Source: Rhodanobacter glycinis
Lineage (GTDB): Bacteria; Pseudomonadota; Gammaproteobacteria; Xanthomonadales; Rhodanobacteraceae
Length of the DNA: 64,000 nt
Reading direction: 5' to 3'
Assembly: GCF_900114325.1 (NCBI RefSeq)
Contig: NZ_FOSR01000006.1
Location: 1-64,000, forward strand
Position 1 is the stretch's first letter; each line of letters begins with the position of its first letter. Below, one piece after another: positions 16,107 to 26,115 of this stretch. The position numbers and the translations under genes are program-made. Below the pieces are notes generated by a model. The model did not search any database. It had not been told where the DNA came from and was given only the letters and a program-made list of their open reading frames with translations.

Positions 16107-17369
16107 TCAACGCACGCCGCGCACCGGCAGGATCGCCCAGGCGCCCAGCGCGACAAGAACCGCCGCCACCATGAACAGGACCGCATAGCTGCCGCTGCTC
16201 ACGGCAAGAATGGCCGGGGCGACGGCAGGCATCAGCCATTGCGGCAGGACGCTGGCGATGTTGAAGATGCCCAGGTTCCTGGCTGCGTGGGTTTCGCGCT
16301 CCGGCAACACGTCGGTGACCAGCGCGAAGTCCACGGCCAGGTAGGTGCCCTGCGCGATACCGCTCAACGCCATGCCGACCAGGAACCAGGCATACGACGT
16401 GGCAAACGCGATCACCACCAGCGCCAGCGCGTAGAGCAGCGCCGCACCGCATACGAAAACCTTGCGCCGCCCGACGGCATCGGACAATCCGCCACCCAGC
16501 ACACCGAAGATGGCCACCATGCAGCACTGCACCACGGTGGACAGGAAGATCCGGTGCGGCACATCGCCCGGTGGGCAGTTCAACTGATGGATCAGGTAGA
16601 ACTCCTGATAGGTCAGCAACATGGCAACGCCGGCGTAGAGCAGGAAGCGGCTGCTCCAGGCCCAGCTGAAATCGGGGAAACGCAACGGGTTGATCCAGAA
16701 ACTGCCCAGGAACCCGCGCCAGCCGTAAGGCGGCCGGTGCGCCGAATCCAACCTGCTGTCGCGCAGCACGCATGCCAGCACGAGTGCGCAGAGCAACGCG
16801 ATCGCGGCCGGCACCAGGAAGATGGCCAGCGTGGACGCCACCAGCACTTCCACCAGGAAGGTGCCGCCGATCATGCCCAGCGGCAGGCTGATGCTCACGA
16901 TGCCGGATACCGTACCGCGCTGCGATGTCGGGATCTGGTCGGAAAGGATTGCCGCCAGCACCGCCAGTTCGGCGTTATAGGCAAGCTGCGTGATGCACCA
17001 ACCCAAGAGGAGCTGCGGGATCGACGTGGCCTGCGCCACGACTGCCAGCCCGGCCACGCCGCCCAGCGCGCCGGCAATCAGCCAGGGCCGGCGCATGCCG
17101 TGGCGCGAGGTCGTGCGATCCGACAGCCGGCCAAAGAACGGATTGCCGAACAAGGCCACCAGCGCTCCCACGCCCACCACCAGCGACAGGCTGTCGGCCG
17201 CATGTGCCGGGTCGATCACGCTGACGCGCATCGCCAGCCCCACCAGGATCGGCGGCAGCAAAGCCATCCACAAGCCCGTATAGGCCAGGCCATAGACCGC
17301 CATGAACAACCGGCCGACGCGACGCGTGCACGGCACGGTCGCGGCCTCGACATGGTCACTGCCCACCAT
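16107..17369 (-). CDS. MFS sugar transporter (GPH-like)
   Basis: 420 residues with about twelve hydrophobic segments. MFS signatures are P-F-F-G-R-L-S-D-R-T-T-S-R-H-G-M-R-R-P-W between helices 2 and 3 and G-G-L-S-D-A-V-G-R-R-K in the second half. The R-x-G-x-R-R-P-W pattern is typical of the glycoside-pentoside-hexuronide/sucrose-type branch. It follows the LacI gene by 66 bases on the same strand and sits opposite the TonB receptor/GH3 genes, so it probably moves a mono- or disaccharide across the inner membrane. The substrate is not readable. Confidence 0.88.
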   Translation of the reverse strand: MVGSDHVEAATVPCTRRVGRLFMAVYGLAYTGLWMALLPPILVGLAMRVSVIDPAHAADSLSLVVGVGALVALFGNPFFGRLSDRTTSRHGMRRPWLIAGALGGVAGLAVVAQATSIPQLLLGWCITQLAYNAELAVLAAILSDQIPTSQRGTVSGIVSISLPLGMIGGTFLVEVLVASTLAIFLVPAAIALLCALVLACVLRDSRLDSAHRPPYGWRGFLGSFWINPLRFPDFSWAWSSRFLLYAGVAMLLTYQEFYLIHQLNCPPGDVPHRIFLSTVVQCCMVAIFGVLGGGLSDAVGRRKVFVCGAALLYALALVVIAFATSYAWFLVGMALSGIAQGTYLAVDFALVTDVLPERETHAARNLGIFNIASVLPQWLMPAVAPAILAVSSGSYAVLFMVAAVLVALGAWAILPVRGVR

Positions 17370-17435: not shown

Positions 17436-18449
17436 CTAAGGCTTTCCGGGAGCGGCCGTGGATGCGCGCAGTTGCACCTGATAGGGCACCCGCTCCTGCT
17501 TGCGCAGGGCCGGGTCGCGGATCGCCTGCAACACGCGTTCGGTCGCCGCGCAGCCCATTTCGCGGCACGGCTGGTGCACCGTGGTCAGGCCGGGCGAGAT
17601 CAGCTGCGATACCGGCGTGCCGTCGAAGCCGCACACCGACAGGTCGCGCGGAATGACCAGCCCGCGTTCATGCGCCTCGCGCATCACACCGCAAGCCATG
17701 TCGTCGTTCGCCGCAAAAATGGCCGTGGGCGGGCGGCGCTGGTCGAGCAAGGCCTTGGCGGCCGCCACGCCCGATGCGAAGGTGAAATCCCCTTCCGCCA
17801 CCAGCGATTCATCGTAGGCGATGCCGCCTTTGCGCAATGCATCGCGGTAGCCATTGCGCCGCCAGGTGCGTGCGCCATGCCCTTTCAGTCCGGTGACGTG
17901 GCCTATTCGCCGATGCCCGAGCGAAATCAGGTGGGCGACGATCTCTTCCGCCGCCTTGCGCTCGTCGAAGCCGATGTCGATCTGCGACTCGCGCAATTTC
18001 GAGGAGATCGTCGAATAGCGGATGTCGAGTTCGTCGAGGCGCTGCAGCAGCTTGGCGTTGCTCGCATGAGGTGGCACCAGCACCAGTGCGTCCGGACGAT
18101 GCTGGGCCACGAAACCGTCGATGCGCGCGGCCAGGTCCTCGCCTGCCTCGAAGGGATGCAGGACGGCGTTGTACGGCGTCCCCCTGCACGCCTGCAGGAC
18201 GCCCACGATCAGCTCCATGACGTAGCTGGAACCGGCCGTGGGGTTGTCGTACAGCAGCGCGACCAGGTACGAACGGTTCCCCGCCAGGCTGCGTGCCGAT
18301 GCGTTGGGCACGTAATTGAGCTCGCGGATCGAGGCCTCGATCCGGGTGCGCAGCTTGGCACGCACGTTCGTATAGCCATTGAGTACACGGGACACCGTCT
18401 TGACGGATACCCCGGCATGCACAGCGACGTCTTCGATTCTCGCAGGCAT
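17436..18449 (-). CDS. LacI family transcriptional repressor
   Basis: 337 residues. The N-terminal helix-turn-helix and hinge are clear: R-I-E-D-V-A-V-H-A-G-V-S-V-K-T-V-S-R-V-L-N-G, then L-N-Y-V-P-N-A-S-A-R-S-L-A-G. The rest is the periplasmic-binding-protein-like sugar sensor (V-A-L-L-Y-D-N-P, G-H-R-R-I-G-H-V-T-G, I-F-A-A-N-D-D-M-A-C-G). ATG 18449 starts exactly at the family-typical M-P-A-R-I-E-D-V; an ATG at 18473 is less likely. The divergent operator pair at 18544-18583 is its probable target, so it should control the receptor/GH3 genes and probably itself plus the MFS gene. Confidence 0.93.
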   Translation of the reverse strand: MPARIEDVAVHAGVSVKTVSRVLNGYTNVRAKLRTRIEASIRELNYVPNASARSLAGNRSYLVALLYDNPTAGSSYVMELIVGVLQACRGTPYNAVLHPFEAGEDLAARIDGFVAQHRPDALVLVPPHASNAKLLQRLDELDIRYSTISSKLRESQIDIGFDERKAAEEIVAHLISLGHRRIGHVTGLKGHGARTWRRNGYRDALRKGGIAYDESLVAEGDFTFASGVAAAKALLDQRRPPTAIFAANDDMACGVMREAHERGLVIPRDLSVCGFDGTPVSQLISPGLTTVHQPCREMGCAATERVLQAIRDPALRKQERVPYQVQLRASTAAPGKP

Positions 18450-18543
18450 GTATCTGCCACCCCACCCTGTCATGACTTGCAGTGCGCCATGCTAACCCAA
18501 GCGGAAAGCGCACATCCATCCGCATTTCACCCCTGCACGAACA

Positions 18544-18583
18544 AAAATACCAGCGCTGGTATTTTCTATTGACAGCGCTGGTA
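18544..18583. promoter_or_regulatory. LacI-type operator pair
   Basis: A 22-bp perfect palindrome at 18544-18565 has the core ATACCAGCGCTGGTAT. A second site at 18571-18583 (GACAGCGCTGGTA) keeps one full half-site. The two centres are 22 bp apart, about two helical turns. The central CG step and ACCAGCGCTGGT symmetry are typical of LacI-family operators. It lies between the divergent LacI and TonB-receptor genes. Confidence 0.88.
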
Positions 18584-18949: not shown

Positions 18950-21900
18950 GTGAAAAAGCCATCCATGTACACACGTGCGCCGGGCGCCAACCAGCCGTGC
19001 CGGCTGTCGCTGGCGATCGCGATGACGCTGTTCGCGGCCGGACAGTTGCATGCGCAAACCACGCCGACGACGAATGATCAAACCACCCCGTCCACGACAC
19101 AGGCCACCAGCAAGGACATCAAGGCGGCCGACAAAAAGACGTCCAAGTCGGTGGACGGCAAGGACGTCACGCAGCTCAACAGCATGACTGTCAGCGGCTA
19201 CGCGTCCAGCCTGAATCGTGCGCAGCAGATCAAGCGCTACTCCGACACCGTGGTTGACGCGATCTCGGCGCAGGACGCCGGCTCGCTGCCCGACCTGTCG
19301 GTGACCGAAGCGCTGCAACGCGTGCCTGGTGTGGCCGTCAGCGCCTTCGGTGTCGCCGCCGATCCGGACCACTTCTCGATCCAGGGCTCGGACATCAGCC
19401 TGCAGGGCCTGCCCTATACCAGCACGCTGTTCAACGGCCGCGAAGTGTTCTCCGCCGGCGGTGGTCAGGGCCTGAACTTTTCCACGGTGTCGCCGGAATT
19501 GATCGGCTCGGTGGTGGTAAGCAAGAACCAGACGGCGGACATGATCGAAGGCGGCATCGCCGGCTCGATCGACCTGCGCACGCGCAAGCCCTTCGACAGC
19601 GACAAGGATACGCAGGCCGCCTTCACCGTCGGCGACTACTGGGGCAGCCTGGACAAGCGCGGCACGCCGCAGATCGCCGGCCTGTTCAGCCACAACTGGA
19701 ATACCGGGATCGGCCGCTTCGGCATCCTGGCCAACCTGGCCTACGACCGCATCGACCAGGCCGACAATGCGATCTCGCTGGTCGATTTCCAGCGGCGCTG
19801 CAACGGCTGCACGCTCCCAGGGAATCGACCCGACCACTATCCAGGCCTGCCTGAGGGCACCGACGGTCCCTACGCCTACCTGCCGATCGGCGGCGACCTG
19901 CGTACCCAGCACGAAACCAGCACGCGCTTCGGCCATGTGCTGGCGGCACAATGGGAAAGCCCGGACAAGGCCTGGTCGGCCACGCTGGAATGGGACCGCG
20001 CTTCGGACACGGAAACCACCTACGAACATACCCTGCAAGCGTCGACAGACGGTTGCGCCTGGTCGGATGCGGACCAGTGCGACATTCCGCTGGCAGGCAC
20101 CACGCCGGTGTTCGATTCCAACGGCGTGTTCCAGTCGGGCATCGTCACGGCGCAGCCCAGCCAGTACACCTATCCGAACGTTTATACGGATAGCAAGGGC
20201 AACCAAATTCCGATGGGCGGCTTGCCCACGCAGATCAACAGCACCGGCTACAGGAACCGCTACGTCACCAACGACTACAGCTTCAACCTGAAGTGGAACG
20301 TCAACGACCGGCTACACCTGAACCTGGACGCGCAGGACACCCACTCCCAGTACAAGTACGCCTACTACTACATCCGCCAGCTGACCAACGCCAACTGGTA
20401 CATCGCCACGCACGGCGACAGCGTACCCACGGTCAAGCTGCTGTCGCCCGACCCTGCCGAAACGACGGCCCAGTACTTCGCCAATCCCGCCAACACGTAC
20501 TGGGCGGCGGCGCAGGACAGCCAGCGCTACTCCTGGGGCAACCAGCGCGCCTTCCGCCTGGACGGCGACTTCGACGCAGACAAGGGACCCCTCAGCGACA
20601 TCCAGTTCGGCTTCCGGCATACCGACCAGAGTGAAACGGTGCAAAGCTCGGCGTTCAACTACGTGCCCATCAGCACGCCGAGTCCCGGGATAGCCCCGAT
20701 CACCGCCGCCGACACGCCCAACTACGTCTCGCCGTACCACGTCAACCTGCCAGCCTTCGGCGGCGGCGATTTCGGTATCGTCGCCCCCTACTTCAACCTG
20801 AATCCGCTTACGCAATTCTGGCAGTCCGCCGCGGCCATCAAGCAGATCAACCAGCAGTGGCTGGCCAACACCCCCAACGCTGTCGGCCCGTACTACACCA
20901 ACTACGATCGCGAGCAGTACGTCGCCGGCGACGTCTTCGTGCCCGGCACGTATTACCTGCCGCAGGAAGTCGCCTCCAACCGGGAAAAGACCAACGCCAC
21001 GTATGTGCGGCTGAACTTCGGCAACAGCAACCTGGATTTCCTCAGCGGGCTGCAGATCAGCGGCAACATCGGCCTGCGTTACATCCACACCCAGGATGAC
21101 GCTTCGGGCTATCTGATCCTGCCGAACATGCTGCAAACCCTCAACGGGCATACCATTGCGCAGTACTGCAATTCGGGCGCGAGCGGCCCGGCACCACAAC
21201 CGGGCACGTTCTGCGCGCTGACGCCGGCACAGCAGCAGCAATACATGAATTTCGCCAATGGCGCGTTCACCCCGATCACGGCCCACAGCTCGTACGGCAA
21301 CTGGTTGCCCAGTTTCAACCTGGCTGTTGGCTGGACCGACGACCTGATTACCCGCTTCGCCTTCTCCGAGTCGATCTACCGGCCCTCGCTGGTGCAGTTG
21401 CAGGCCGGGCAATCGGTCGGCGGACTGCTGCCCTACGGCACCAACGGCAGCACCGAGCCGACGGTGGGGAATGGCTACAACGGCTCGAACCCGTATCTCA
21501 AGCCGATCACCGCGCACAACTTCGACCTGAGCCAGGAGTGGTATTTCGCCAACGCCGGCTCGCTCACCGGCATGCTGTTCTACAAGCAGCTGAACCACAC
21601 CATCCAGTACATCACCAGCGTCGTCGACACCACGGTGACCAACAATGGCGTGACCTATCCCGAGCAATACACGGCCGGCCTGGCCAACCTGGACCAGAAG
21701 GGCAGCGTGCGTGGCGCGGAACTGGCCTACCAGCAGAAGTACGATTTCCTGCCCGGCTGGTTGTCCGGCTTCGGCACGCAGATGAACTACACCTACATCA
21801 AGCCGCACGGACTGGGTTTCGGCTCGATCAACTACTGCCCCAGCGGCTATGTGGCACCGACGCAATGCATCAACCAGCTCAAGCTGCCGCCGTCGGAGCT

Positions 21901-22228
21901 GTCCCGCGACACCTTCAACTTCACCGCCTATTACGAGAAAGGCCCACTGTCGGCACGACTGGCCTGGAACTGGCGTTCGCAGTTCCTGATCTCCGGCCAG
22001 GAAGCGGATTACCCGTTCCTGCCGGTGATGGCCGAGTCGCAGGGCAAGCTGGACGGCTCGCTGATCTACACGATCAACCCGCACGTCAAGGTGGCACTGC
22101 AGGTATCCAACCTGTTGAACTCGACGTTCAAGACCCGCGAGATCGTCAACACCGACGGCCTGAGCGTGCCCAAGGGCTTCTTCCGCGACGACACCCGCTA
22201 CAACCTCAGCCTGCGCGCGAACTTCTGA
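18950..22228 (+). CDS. TonB-dependent receptor (carbohydrate type)
   Basis: 1092 residues. The signal peptide (L-A-I-A-M-T-L-F-A-A-G-Q-L-H-A) is followed by a Thr/Lys-rich linker. The plug domain at about 95-230 has P-D-L-S-V-T-E-A-L-Q-R-V-P-G-V, I-Q-G-S-D-I-S-L-Q-G-L-P and V-V-V-S-K-N-Q-T-A-D-M-I-E-G-G-I-A-G-S-I-D-L. The barrel ends with Y-N-L-S-L-R-A-N-F, a C-terminal Phe as in outer-membrane barrels. The TIGR01782-type plug and the neighbours (LacI, GH3, MFS, esterase) point to oligosaccharide uptake. Start is GTG 18950 with GGGGAGAG upstream. Expression is probably repressed by the adjacent LacI protein. Confidence 0.93.
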   Translation: MKKPSMYTRAPGANQPCRLSLAIAMTLFAAGQLHAQTTPTTNDQTTPSTTQATSKDIKAADKKTSKSVDGKDVTQLNSMTVSGYASSLNRAQQIKRYSDTVVDAISAQDAGSLPDLSVTEALQRVPGVAVSAFGVAADPDHFSIQGSDISLQGLPYTSTLFNGREVFSAGGGQGLNFSTVSPELIGSVVVSKNQTADMIEGGIAGSIDLRTRKPFDSDKDTQAAFTVGDYWGSLDKRGTPQIAGLFSHNWNTGIGRFGILANLAYDRIDQADNAISLVDFQRRCNGCTLPGNRPDHYPGLPEGTDGPYAYLPIGGDLRTQHETSTRFGHVLAAQWESPDKAWSATLEWDRASDTETTYEHTLQASTDGCAWSDADQCDIPLAGTTPVFDSNGVFQSGIVTAQPSQYTYPNVYTDSKGNQIPMGGLPTQINSTGYRNRYVTNDYSFNLKWNVNDRLHLNLDAQDTHSQYKYAYYYIRQLTNANWYIATHGDSVPTVKLLSPDPAETTAQYFANPANTYWAAAQDSQRYSWGNQRAFRLDGDFDADKGPLSDIQFGFRHTDQSETVQSSAFNYVPISTPSPGIAPITAADTPNYVSPYHVNLPAFGGGDFGIVAPYFNLNPLTQFWQSAAAIKQINQQWLANTPNAVGPYYTNYDREQYVAGDVFVPGTYYLPQEVASNREKTNATYVRLNFGNSNLDFLSGLQISGNIGLRYIHTQDDASGYLILPNMLQTLNGHTIAQYCNSGASGPAPQPGTFCALTPAQQQQYMNFANGAFTPITAHSSYGNWLPSFNLAVGWTDDLITRFAFSESIYRPSLVQLQAGQSVGGLLPYGTNGSTEPTVGNGYNGSNPYLKPITAHNFDLSQEWYFANAGSLTGMLFYKQLNHTIQYITSVVDTTVTNNGVTYPEQYTAGLANLDQKGSVRGAELAYQQKYDFLPGWLSGFGTQMNYTYIKPHGLGFGSINYCPSGYVAPTQCINQLKLPPSELSRDTFNFTAYYEKGPLSARLAWNWRSQFLISGQEADYPFLPVMAESQGKLDGSLIYTINPHVKVALQVSNLLNSTFKTREIVNTDGLSVPKGFFRDDTRYNLSLRANF

Positions 22229-22451: not shown

Positions 22452-23810
22452 TTGATCAGATTCACGGCAATCAGGCTCGGCAACACCCGGCGCGGCTGGC
22501 TGGGCGGAGTGGCCGTGGGCCTGGTGCTTGCCATGTCTTCGATGCTGCCGGCCCACGCGCAAGCGGCAGCCATCCCGAGATCCGACACACAAGCGGCAGC
22601 CGCCCGAATCGAAGCCATCGCGCGCACGGGCTGCAACGTCCTTGCTGCACGCGTCGATACACTGCCCGGCAACGCTCCGGTCTTGCTGCGCAGCTACGAC
22701 AACTCGCGAGGCCAGGGCGCACCCGATCTGCTGCCGTTGCGCTCGGCGGCGTTCACTTACGACAACGCGCTGGCGGTGATCGCCCTGCTCGCCTGCCACC
22801 GCCGATCGCAAGCCGAGCGGATCGGCGCCGCGCTGCGATTGGCCGCGATGAACGACACGCGCCTGCGCGACGCCTACCGCGCCGGCATCGTGGCAGGCGA
22901 CAAGCCGCTGCCAAACGGCTGGCGCGATCCCGACAGCGGACGCTGGATCGAGGCGGCGCAGCGGTATGCCGGCGCCTACCAGGACGGCAGTTCGTGCGGC
23001 AACGTGGCCTGGGCGGCACTGGCACTGCTGGCCCTGCATCACACCACCGCCGAGGGTCGTTGGCGCGATGCCGCCGTGCATCTCGCCCGCTGGGTGGTCG
23101 AGCATGCCGCCGACACGCGTGGCGCCGGCGGCTTCGATGGCGGCATCGAGTCCTACTTGCTGGTTCCACGCAAGGCGGCATGGAAATCCACCGAACACAA
23201 CATCGATCTGGTCGCCATGTTCGAATGGCTGCAGCGGATTGCCGCGCCCGGCGGCGACTGGCAGGCCCAGGCGCGGCACGCGCGTCGATTCGTGGATGCG
23301 CAATGGGATGCGGCCAGCGGGCATTTCTGGATGGGCACCACCGCCGATGGCGTGACGCCGCTTCGCTCACCCTCGGCACTCGATGTGCAACTCTGGGCAC
23401 AATTGCTGCCGAATGCGCCGAAGCCATGGCGGCGGGCGCTGCACTGGATCGAACGCATGAACAGCGTCAAGGGCGGTTTCGACTTCACCGACGATCGCGA
23501 CGGCTTATGGACGGAAGGCACCGCACAGGCCGCACTCGTCTATCGCTGGACGGGCAACGCAGCCAGGGCCAACGCCTTGTTCGTATCGATCGCACAACAG
23601 GCATCGCCCGGCGGCTTCCTGTACGCCACGCCCGCGCCGCGCATCACGGCGGTGTATTCCTACTACCGGCACCAGCCGTGTCTTGCAGCAACGGCATGGG
23701 CCGTGATCGCCGCGCTGGATCGCAATCCGTACCTGCCGCCAAACATGCACCGAGCGAACACGCCGCCGCACGCAAGCCCTGCACATGCCGGCCACCCCAC
23801 CCTGCAATGA
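22452..23810 (+). CDS. secreted protein of unknown family, probably an alpha/alpha-toroid glycan enzyme
   Basis: 452 residues with a signal peptide (W-L-G-G-V-A-V-G-L-V-L-A-M-S-S-M-L-P-A-H-A). I do not recognise the family with confidence. The mature part is a series of helix pairs with aromatic loops (F-T-Y-D-N-A-L-A-V-I-A-L-L-A, Y-Q-D-G-S-S-C-G-N-V-A-W-A-A-L-A-L-L-A-L, S-T-E-H-N-I-D-L-V-A-M-F-E-W, G-L-W-T-E-G-T-A-Q-A-A-L-V), a pattern seen in (alpha/alpha)6-barrel glycosidases. Y-D-N, E-H-N-I-D and W-T-E-G could hold acidic catalytic residues. Start is a TTG; an ATG 27 codons later would spoil the signal peptide. It sits 40 bases before the GH3 gene and 223 after the receptor. Confidence 0.65.
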   Translation: MIRFTAIRLGNTRRGWLGGVAVGLVLAMSSMLPAHAQAAAIPRSDTQAAAARIEAIARTGCNVLAARVDTLPGNAPVLLRSYDNSRGQGAPDLLPLRSAAFTYDNALAVIALLACHRRSQAERIGAALRLAAMNDTRLRDAYRAGIVAGDKPLPNGWRDPDSGRWIEAAQRYAGAYQDGSSCGNVAWAALALLALHHTTAEGRWRDAAVHLARWVVEHAADTRGAGGFDGGIESYLLVPRKAAWKSTEHNIDLVAMFEWLQRIAAPGGDWQAQARHARRFVDAQWDAASGHFWMGTTADGVTPLRSPSALDVQLWAQLLPNAPKPWRRALHWIERMNSVKGGFDFTDDRDGLWTEGTAQAALVYRWTGNAARANALFVSIAQQASPGGFLYATPAPRITAVYSYYRHQPCLAATAWAVIAALDRNPYLPPNMHRANTPPHASPAHAGHPTLQ

Positions 23811-23850
23811 ACCTGCTCGCACCCCGCTTCGCAACACGAGGAAAAATGTC

Positions 23851-26115
23851 ATGACCCTTCGCAAGACTCCCGTAGCCGCCTTCATCGGCATGGCGTTGCT
23901 GACCTGTTTCGGGGCAAGCGCCGCAAGCTCTGCGAGCAAGCCGGCGCGACCATGGCTGAACACCCATCTGTCGCCCGACCAGCGCGCCTCGCTGGTGGTG
24001 AAGGCGATGACCCAGGACGAGAAGTTCCAGCTGATCGATGTCCAGTTCGGCGACACCGAGAACGGTCACGTGATGTCGCCCGGCGCGCTGGCGTCCGCGG
24101 GTTACGATCCGGCGATCAAGCGGCTGGGCCTGCCGGCGCTGCAGGAAAGCGATGCCGGCCTGGGCGTGGCCAAACCGCACAAGCTGGGTGCCACCGCGCT
24201 GCCGTCCGGCCTGGCGACCGCGGCCAGCTTCGATCCCGCGCTGGCCTACGCCGGCGGCGCGATGATCGGCAGCGAAGCGCACCACCGCGGCTTCAACGTG
24301 ATGCTGGCCGGTGGCGCCGATCTGGTGCGCGATCCGCGCAACGGTCGCAACTTCGAATACGCCGGCGAAGACCCCTTGCTCACCGGCCTGATCGTCGGCC
24401 ATGCGATCGCCGGCATCCAGAGCCAGCACGTTGTCTCCACCATCAAGCATTACGCCTTCAATGATCTGGAAACGGCACGCACCACGTTCAGTGCCGACAT
24501 CAATCCGACCGCCGCGCGCGAATCGGACCTGCTCGCCTTCGAGATCGCCATCGAAACCGGGCATCCCGGTTCGGTGATGTGCTCCTACAACCGCGTCAAC
24601 TCGGTCTACGCCTGCGAGAACGACTGGCTGCTCGACAAGGTGCTGAAGCGCGACTGGCACTACCCCGGCTACGTGATGTCGGACTGGGGCGCGGTGCACA
24701 GTGCGGCCAAGTCCGCGCTGGCCGGGCTGGACCAGGAATCGGCCGGCGAGACCTTCGACAAGGAGGTGTACTTCGGCAAGCCGCTGCGTGCTGCCGTGGC
24801 CTCCGGCGAGGTGCCGCAGTCGCGCATCGACGACATGGCGCACCGCATCCTGCGCAGCCTGTTCGCGAGCGGGGTGATCGACCATCCGGCCGAACAGGCG
24901 CCGATCGATTTCGCTGCCGACCGCAAGGTGGCGCAGCACGTCGAGGAAGCGGGCGCGGTGCTGCTGCGCAACCAGAACGCATTGCTGCCGCTGTCGGGCG
25001 CGCAGTCGGTGGCCGTCATCGGCGGCCATGCCGACAAGGGCGTGCTGACCGGCGGCGGCTCCTCCGCGGTGCAGTCACCCGAAGGCAATGCCGTGCCGGG
25101 CCTGGCGCCCACCGCATGGCCGGGGCCGCGCATCTACCAGCCGTCCGCGCCATTGACCGCGATCCGGCAGCGCGCACATGGCAAGGTGAGCTACGCCAGC
25201 GGCGAGGACATTGCCGCCGCCGCGAAACTGGCCGCGCAAGCCAAGGTGGCGGTGGTGTTCGTCGAGCAATGGTCGGCGGAAAGCTTCGACTCGCCGCACA
25301 TGACGCTGCCCGGCAACCAGGACGCGCTGGTCGCGGCCGTGGCCAAGGCCAACCCGCACACCATCGTCGTGCTGGAAAACAACGGCCCGGTCGCGATGCC
25401 GTGGCTGGATCAGGTCGGCGCGGTGCTGGAAGCGTGGTACCCCGGTGCCGGCGGCGGCGAAGCCATTGCACGGCTGCTGTACGGCGAAGTCGATCCGGCC
25501 GGACGCTTGCCAGTATCGTGGCCGCGTGACGAAGCGCAGTTGCCGCGCCCGCAAATTCCCGGCGCCGGCCTGGCCTCCATCGGCCTGATACCGCAAGGCC
25601 AGCCGGCCGAGCATGTGGACTACAACATCGAAGGCGCGAACGTCGGCTACCGCTGGTACCAGCACAAAGGCATCCAGCCGCTGTTCCCGTTCGGCTACGG
25701 CCTGGGCTACACGCATTTCGCCTACAGCGACTTCAAGCCGCGTATCGAGCATGGGCGCGTGGTGGCCTCGTTCACGGTGACCAATCGCGGCAAGCGCGCA
25801 GGCGTGGACGTGCCGCAGCTGTATGCCACCCTGCCCGGCAGCGGCGAGGTACGGCGATTGGCCGGATGGTGCCGGGTCAGCCTGAAGCCGGGGCAGTCCG
25901 CGCATCTCGAAGTCACCGCCGATCCTCGCCTGCTGGTGAACTTCGACGCGTCAGGACAACAATGGCAGCGTCCGGCCGGCAGCTATCAGCTGCAATTGGG
26001 GCACTCTGCTACCTCTTTCCAAGGCCAGGGCTCCGTGACGCTGCCAAAGGCCAGTTGGCCTGCGGACGCACCACCGAAGGGTGCATCGCAAAGCTGCCTA
26101 GCCAGTCGGAGTTAA
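23851..26115 (+). CDS. secreted GH3 family glycosidase (beta-glucosidase/xylosidase type)
   Basis: 754 residues. The signal peptide is A-F-I-G-M-A-L-L-T-C-F-G-A-S-A-A. The N-terminal TIM barrel has K-H-Y-A-F-N-D-L-E-T and the nucleophile D278 in V-M-S-D278-W-G-A-V-H. The second domain follows (L-L-R-N-Q-N-A-L-L-P-L, V-V-F-V-E-Q-W-S-A-E-S-F-D), then L-F-P-F-G-Y-G-L-G-Y-T-H-F and a C-terminal fibronectin-III-like domain at about 640-730. Start ATG 23851 has GAGGAAAA upstream. It shares the probable transcript of the receptor and of the preceding unknown protein. It should release terminal beta-linked sugar in the periplasm; the exact sugar is unknown. Confidence 0.93.
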   Translation: MTLRKTPVAAFIGMALLTCFGASAASSASKPARPWLNTHLSPDQRASLVVKAMTQDEKFQLIDVQFGDTENGHVMSPGALASAGYDPAIKRLGLPALQESDAGLGVAKPHKLGATALPSGLATAASFDPALAYAGGAMIGSEAHHRGFNVMLAGGADLVRDPRNGRNFEYAGEDPLLTGLIVGHAIAGIQSQHVVSTIKHYAFNDLETARTTFSADINPTAARESDLLAFEIAIETGHPGSVMCSYNRVNSVYACENDWLLDKVLKRDWHYPGYVMSDWGAVHSAAKSALAGLDQESAGETFDKEVYFGKPLRAAVASGEVPQSRIDDMAHRILRSLFASGVIDHPAEQAPIDFAADRKVAQHVEEAGAVLLRNQNALLPLSGAQSVAVIGGHADKGVLTGGGSSAVQSPEGNAVPGLAPTAWPGPRIYQPSAPLTAIRQRAHGKVSYASGEDIAAAAKLAAQAKVAVVFVEQWSAESFDSPHMTLPGNQDALVAAVAKANPHTIVVLENNGPVAMPWLDQVGAVLEAWYPGAGGGEAIARLLYGEVDPAGRLPVSWPRDEAQLPRPQIPGAGLASIGLIPQGQPAEHVDYNIEGANVGYRWYQHKGIQPLFPFGYGLGYTHFAYSDFKPRIEHGRVVASFTVTNRGKRAGVDVPQLYATLPGSGEVRRLAGWCRVSLKPGQSAHLEVTADPRLLVNFDASGQQWQRPAGSYQLQLGHSATSFQGQGSVTLPKASWPADAPPKGASQSCLASRS

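Follow-up and report, generated by a model that had tools for sequence, protein, structure and literature searches.

Gene organization at the locus

The window, i.e., the complete 64,000-nucleotide stretch of DNA that was analyzed, contained a gene for a 452-residue protein (22452–23810, forward strand, TTG start) between genes encoding a TonB-dependent receptor of the TIGR01782 type (18950–22228, forward strand; Pfam, NCBIfam) and a β-glucosidase-type GH3 enzyme (23785–26115, forward strand; Pfam PF00933, PF01915, and PF14310, NCBIfam and PDB relatives). The start of the GH3 reading frame overlapped the end of the preceding gene by 26 bases. Genes for a LacI-family regulator (17436–18473, reverse strand; Pfam) and, adjoining it, an MFS transporter (16107–17369, reverse strand; NCBIfam), the latter found at the same position in sister loci, were divergent from these three genes.

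A genome contig search yielded 80 relatives (kept out of 108; 38–77% identity), which indicated that the open reading frame at 22452–23810 is coding, and relatives occurred in 49 of the 147 genomes of its own family, the Rhodanobacteraceae. Inspection by eye indicated a Sec-type signal peptide, consisting of a hydrophobic stretch followed by AHAQA. These results bear out a first-pass annotation of the window, which had described a secreted 452-residue protein encoded between a receptor and a GH3 enzyme. In loci L027 and L030 and in genome G127 (contig C3:197556–198824), the family gene was split over frames or pieces, possibly by decay or assembly error.

Relationship to CrdC

Neither Pfam nor NCBIfam gave an above-cut-off match for the 452-residue protein, and a PDB sequence search with this single protein as query returned nothing better than E 0.13, in agreement with the first-pass annotation, which had found no family to name. 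Among 56 relatives, no Pfam model covering the family was found; weak matches comprised GH127 in 14 of the 56 (best E 3.5e-4; not in the 452-residue protein), TPR, and others. Several candidate families were rejected by sequence: PF00723 (GH15) had no match in the 56 members, PF10091 (GH144, clan GH-S) had none in the protein or the 56 members, PF01270 (GH8, BcsZ) was not among the matches at E 1 in the 56 members, and PF07221 (AGE) did not match the protein. Profile–profile comparison by hhalign, which the annotation had proposed, joined the family to neither GH15 (6%) nor GH144 (0.3%), both values being based on small alignments of 8 and 13 sequences. In the plasmid records examined, family members were annotated as hypothetical proteins. 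Residues 182–421 were weakly similar (E ~1e-4) to the C-terminal parts of two phage tail-fiber families, phrog_7032 and phrog_13714, regions that are perhaps helical-toroid depolymerase domains. This phage link was dropped because a tblastn search of 50,697 phage records was empty and matches in BFVD were mostly generic.

Computational comparison revealed a relationship that the first-pass annotation had missed, namely full-length homology with the 421-residue CrdC (38% identity over 435 positions, E 2e-63). CrdC is the third protein of crdASC, the operon for synthesis of the β-1,3-glucan curdlan, in which crdS encodes the curdlan synthase. A protein search of the genus Agrobacterium identified a crd locus (L136), and this one locus was fitted by four published primer pairs (PMC4327974) for crdA (227 and 395 bp), crdS (179 bp), and crdC (248 bp), with 0–2 mismatches per primer and amplicon lengths exactly as published. 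The gene matched by the crdC primers in this locus was a member of the family. An exact search with the crdC primer pair in 394 Rhizobiaceae genomes gave no match. On the basis of these sequence comparisons, the 452-residue protein can be firmly assigned to the CrdC family. CrdC itself was likewise unmatched in NCBIfam and, above cut-off, in Pfam. PMC3293034 lists CrdC (AGRO_1849/Atu3055) as hypothetical and as induced 66-fold during production of curdlan; information on the crd genes was also taken from PMC9495663. No published function for CrdC was found in the literature library searched, and the relevant text of PMC10819609 likewise gives its function as unknown.

Predicted fold

An AlphaFold2 model of the 452-residue protein, built from a 56-sequence alignment (pLDDT 88.5, pTM 0.86), was mostly helical, with outer and inner helices in alternation, and was read as an (α/α)6 toroid. 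Among 1000 realigned chains, its best structural neighbors were dextran dextrinase (Z 33.0, 2.8 Å, 326 residues), cellobiose 2-epimerase (Z 31.1), KfIG-type GH15 (Z 31), and methylmannose polysaccharide hydrolase (MmpH, Z 30.8), so that the top neighbors differed by only about 2 Z units. Structural alignments with GH15 enzymes (Z 31–33, 2.8–3.0 Å, 313–326 residues) were those of an (α/α)6 barrel. A second model, with a Rhizobium freirei protein encoded in a crd operon as its lead sequence (pLDDT 89.9), had the same neighbors, and BcsZ was among the Foldseek matches of the first model (E 2.3e-6). GH81, another (α/α)6 β-1,3-glucanase family, was absent from the top 50 neighbors of both models, an absence from which no exclusion follows.

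The structure prediction and fold search, also proposed in the first-pass annotation, supported its description of paired helices in a toroid and showed likeness to GH15 and MmpH hydrolases and to sugar 2-epimerases. That annotation had suggested a new glycoside hydrolase or lyase family. Since the folds closest to the model belong to glycoside hydrolases and epimerases, a lyase role is less likely, and the reading that fits best is a new glycoside hydrolase family of predicted activity.

Invariant acidic residues and a lost loop

Five acidic residues, D104, E248, D252, D311, and E355, were identical in all 114 aligned members, a count that leaves out the frameshifted L027 and L030. Four of them lie in the motifs that had looked conserved in the single sequence, Y103-D104-N105, E248-H-N-I-D252, and W353-T-E-G356. 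By helix order in the model, rather than by coordinates, the five acids start inner helices 2, 6, 6, 8, and 10, respectively; (α/α)6 barrels bind sugar on the face where the inner helices start. W, Y, R, and Q positions at the barrel mouth were also invariant.

The 14 loci whose LacI and TonB genes resembled those of the window are here called utilization loci. In all 14 of their members, including the 452-residue protein, a loop of 10 residues located between helices 11 and 12, ahead of the last inner helix, was deleted (29 residues in region 389–417 vs. 36–39), and an acid inside this loop was kept in 96 of the 100 members outside the clade. The loop before helix 4 had 51 residues in the utilization clade vs. 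44–45 in relatives from Rudaea and Tahibacter. According to the account of GH15 in PMC12446779, the general acid of that family is a Glu in the helix 5–6 loop and its general base a Glu in the helix 11–12 loop; no invariant D or E was present in the latter loop across the CrdC family. For MmpH, PMC9883506 describes an Asp in the first helix-pair loop.

Absence of the acid-bearing loop makes binding without catalysis possible in the utilization clade, with catalysis lost or altered. The clade, including the 452-residue protein, would then be a non-catalytic β-1,3-glucan binder that arose from an enzymatic CrdC by loss of an active-site loop. Such an origin would fit the consistent deletion, in 14 out of 14 members, of a loop that otherwise nearly always carries an acid and that corresponds to the location of the GH15 base. 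However, invariance of the five acids and of the W, Y, R, and Q positions at the mouth goes beyond the obvious needs of binding, and we consider this explanation unlikely. We prefer retained catalysis, with E355 or D311 as the base, given that none of the five acids varies. In such an inverting glycosidase mechanism, E248 would act as the acid, in the place of the GH15 acid, D104 would take the place of the Asp in the first loop of MmpH, and E355, D311, or D104 would serve in other roles. Should the base indeed be E355 or D311, the loop deletion may open the cleft for short oligosaccharides.

Genomic contexts of the family

In 116 loci with a family gene, analyzed by tblastn, CrdS adjoined on the same strand in 34, LacI and TonB genes like those in the window were present in 14, and neither context applied to 68. 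This set is non-random; it consists of 80 loci from the search for relatives (of 108), the window, three plasmid records, and 32 stretches selected for carrying the gene. The context table omits L082–L100 and the doublets L104–L119 and L131–L135, and retains near-copies (e.g., L101 and L138). A quick tree with open forks and long branches, from which L027 and L030 were left out, required two changes for the utilization-locus label (mean of 12.6 after shuffling) and 10 for all three labels (41.2 after shuffling).

The family gene was present in 12 of 394 Rhizobiaceae genomes, each time with CrdS adjoining, and in Rhizobiaceae and Variovorax it occurred together with a gene for an HlyD-like protein and a GT2 synthase. 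CrdS was found in 7 of the 147 Rhodanobacteraceae genomes, always beside a divergent copy of the family gene. Neither the source genome (at E 1e-60) nor the locus in the window contained CrdS, and the gene studied here was not associated with a crd operon. Matches to the CrdS query in 13 of 45 genomes of the genus Azospirillum (E 1e-60), with best identities of 36–39%, were taken as other synthases.

By their gaps to crdA and crdS, crd loci showed two gene orders, crdA-crdS-crdC in the Agrobacterium types and crdA-crdC-crdS elsewhere (contrast L071–L080, L103, L122, and L124–L130 with L067, L101, and L136). A gene for an outer-membrane efflux protein of the NodT/TolC type (e.g., L183:2910–4421) lay beside crdS in 12 of 34 crd loci, seven from Rhodanobacteraceae and five from Variovorax; the same query found none in the remaining 22. 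Its product is a candidate for the outer-membrane exit for curdlan.

Among 17 sister stretches from Rhodanobacteraceae, 10 kept a CrdC-like gene without CrdS. CrdC-like genes without crdA or crdS were located between ybeY/phoH and corC in L186, L187, L191, L193, and others, a place that in L183 and L192 is taken by a crd operon. A CrdC-type protein therefore seems to have a use without the synthase, since such genes persist without CrdS, several of them in the ybeY–corC neighborhood of crd-bearing genomes.

These contexts bear on the alternative that the entire family, CrdC included, is a non-catalytic glucan-binding factor for export or assembly. Insertions in crdC abolish curdlan, according to the relevant text of PMC10819609, and the company of the HlyD-like protein and, in part of the crd loci, of the efflux protein would suit such a role. 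Retention of the gene where CrdS and CrdA are missing, at a chromosomal site shared with sister genomes (L186 vs. L183), its use in uptake loci, and the five invariant acids all speak against it, making this explanation decidedly improbable.

A shared predicted operator and the probable link to β-1,3-glucan

Between the lacI and TonB-receptor genes, sequence comparison identified an operator-like palindrome, TACCAGCGCTGGTA (18548–18561), inside the 24-base sequence AAAAATACCAGCGCTGGTATTTTC (18543–18566), and a second, imperfect copy with two mismatches (18570–18583) that overlapped a TTGACA −35-like box. TACCAGCGCTGGTA was present as an exact copy in nine other utilization loci. Within one mismatch, its sole other sites in the source genome were two tandem copies on a different contig, spaced 24 bases apart, in which the flanked form AAAAATACCAGCGCTGGTATTTTC was kept with one mismatch each. 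This pair lay approximately 290 bases upstream of a gene for a 602-residue secreted protein that combined a GH64 β-1,3-glucanase domain (E 3.6e-80) with CBM56 and CBM5/12 modules. The GH64-CBM56 locus with the same double operator (L201:8894–11024, contig C12 of the source genome) adjoined homologs of zwf, pgl, edd, and eda.

The 24-mer, within three mismatches, was absent from 1.28 Mb of Markov-shuffled window sequence. The bare 14-mer at up to one mismatch was no rarer in the source genome than a reversed control (3 vs. 4), and the case for an operator is therefore based on tandem spacing and flanks. Other palindromes were present in the same intergenic regions. We infer that the double palindrome is a predicted operator that would be bound by the LacI protein of the locus.

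The GH3 type of the window was encoded in 7 of the 14 utilization loci and, judged by its relatives, is not linkage-specific. In three of the 14, all sister loci, an ExoP-type GH3 gene preceded the receptor gene; its best PDB match was an exo-1,3/1,4-β-glucanase (6.7e-182). Together, the GH64-linked operator and the ExoP-type GH3 provide a line to β-1,3-glucan that is independent of the crd link, and β-1,3-glucan as the substrate is well supported. Kinship with CrdC and the presence of the gene in an uptake locus tied to β-1,3-glucan breakdown therefore make a β-1,3-glucan-cutting family probable.

A glycosidase for another glycan, such as a mixed-linkage, β-1,4-, or α-glucan, to which the CrdC and GH64 links would be indirect, might be considered on the grounds that the nearest folds are the α-active GH15 enzymes and MmpH and that the name of the ExoP-type GH3 covers 1,3 as well as 1,4 bonds. 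Yet curdlan synthase and the GH64 β-1,3-glucanase are two separate links that name one polymer, and we regard activity on another glycan as very improbable.

Proposed role

Our favored reading, which we hold to be fairly probable, is that the 452-residue protein is a periplasmic, (α/α)6 glycosidase-like member of the CrdC family with β-1,3-glucan as its substrate and a predicted activity, acting here in a catabolic regulon and associated with the synthase in crd operons. Points that weigh against it are the deleted loop in the utilization clade, top structural neighbors that cleave α-linked glycans or are epimerases, the majority of members (68 of 116) outside both contexts, the occurrence of the ExoP-type GH3 in only 3 and of the window's GH3 type in 7 of the 14 utilization loci, and the frequency of the bare 14-mer relative to its control. 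We infer a scheme for the order of steps, catalysis, and linkage specificity in which a LacI-type repressor would control a β-1,3-glucan utilization regulon. The secreted GH64-CBM56 glucanase, whose gene lies on a different contig downstream of the same predicted operator, would cut the polymer outside the cell, and the TonB-dependent receptor would take up the pieces. These may then be shortened in the periplasm by the CrdC-family protein and the GH3 enzyme, and the MFS transporter would take on the glucose. In crd operons, CrdC would act in the periplasm on curdlan as it is being made, in the manner of BcsZ with cellulose and AlgL with alginate.

The CrdC family thus probably consists of unclassified β-1,3-glucan-cutting enzymes that serve both synthesis and consumption of the polymer. 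With slightly better than even odds, in our estimate, CrdC and related proteins constitute a new family of glycoside hydrolases, namely single-domain (α/α)6 β-1,3-glucanases, one branch being an obligate hydrolase of the curdlan synthase and the other having been recruited to TonB-dependent uptake with remodeled loops at the barrel mouth. An AGE-type sugar epimerase or isomerase is extremely unlikely: cellobiose 2-epimerase stood level with the glycosidases in the fold search, but the AGE histidine pair is not kept in the family, and the 452-residue protein lacks the Pfam match.

Curdlan is an industrial β-1,3-glucan, and the CrdC family is without a name in Pfam and NCBIfam. If true, the new-family reading would assign CrdC the function that it has so far lacked. 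The fold, the five candidate active-site acids, and the catabolic, GH64-linked cousin make the role of CrdC directly testable on soluble oligosaccharides.

Comparison with known systems

The 452-residue protein shares full-length homology, a signal peptide, and all five invariant acids with CrdC. CrdC is encoded with CrdS, whereas the 452-residue protein is encoded in a LacI/TonB/GH3 locus of a genome without CrdS and has lost the helix 11–12 loop.

With GH15 (KfIG, 5z3a; dextran dextrinase, 9ju0; glucoamylase, 1lf6; glucodextranase, 1ug9) the family has the (α/α)6 barrel in common (Z 29–33), and E248, at the start of helix 6 by the helix order of the model, would correspond to the GH15 acid. 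GH15 differs from the CrdC family in Pfam assignment, in sequence profile, and in having its base in the helix 11–12 loop. MmpH (7qsj), an endo-enzyme, is likewise a single-domain (α/α)6 protein with an Asp in the first helix-pair loop, but shares only 12% identity and acts on another substrate. The closest folds by structure act on α-linked glycans or epimerize sugars. AGE epimerases use two conserved catalytic His, a pair that is not kept in the CrdC family: its sole near-invariant His is H249, and 9 of 13 utilization rows have another residue at position 410. The β-1,2-glucanases of clan GH-S (GH144, 162, and 192–194), described as (α/α)6 barrels in PMC12102758, have this barrel in common with the CrdC family, from which they are set apart by the profile comparison.

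In synthase-dependent exopolysaccharide operons, BcsZ (GH8) and AlgL (PL5) are helical-barrel proteins of the periplasm whose genes accompany that of a GT2 synthase. They belong to other sequence families than CrdC, which is paired with a β-1,3-glucan synthase.
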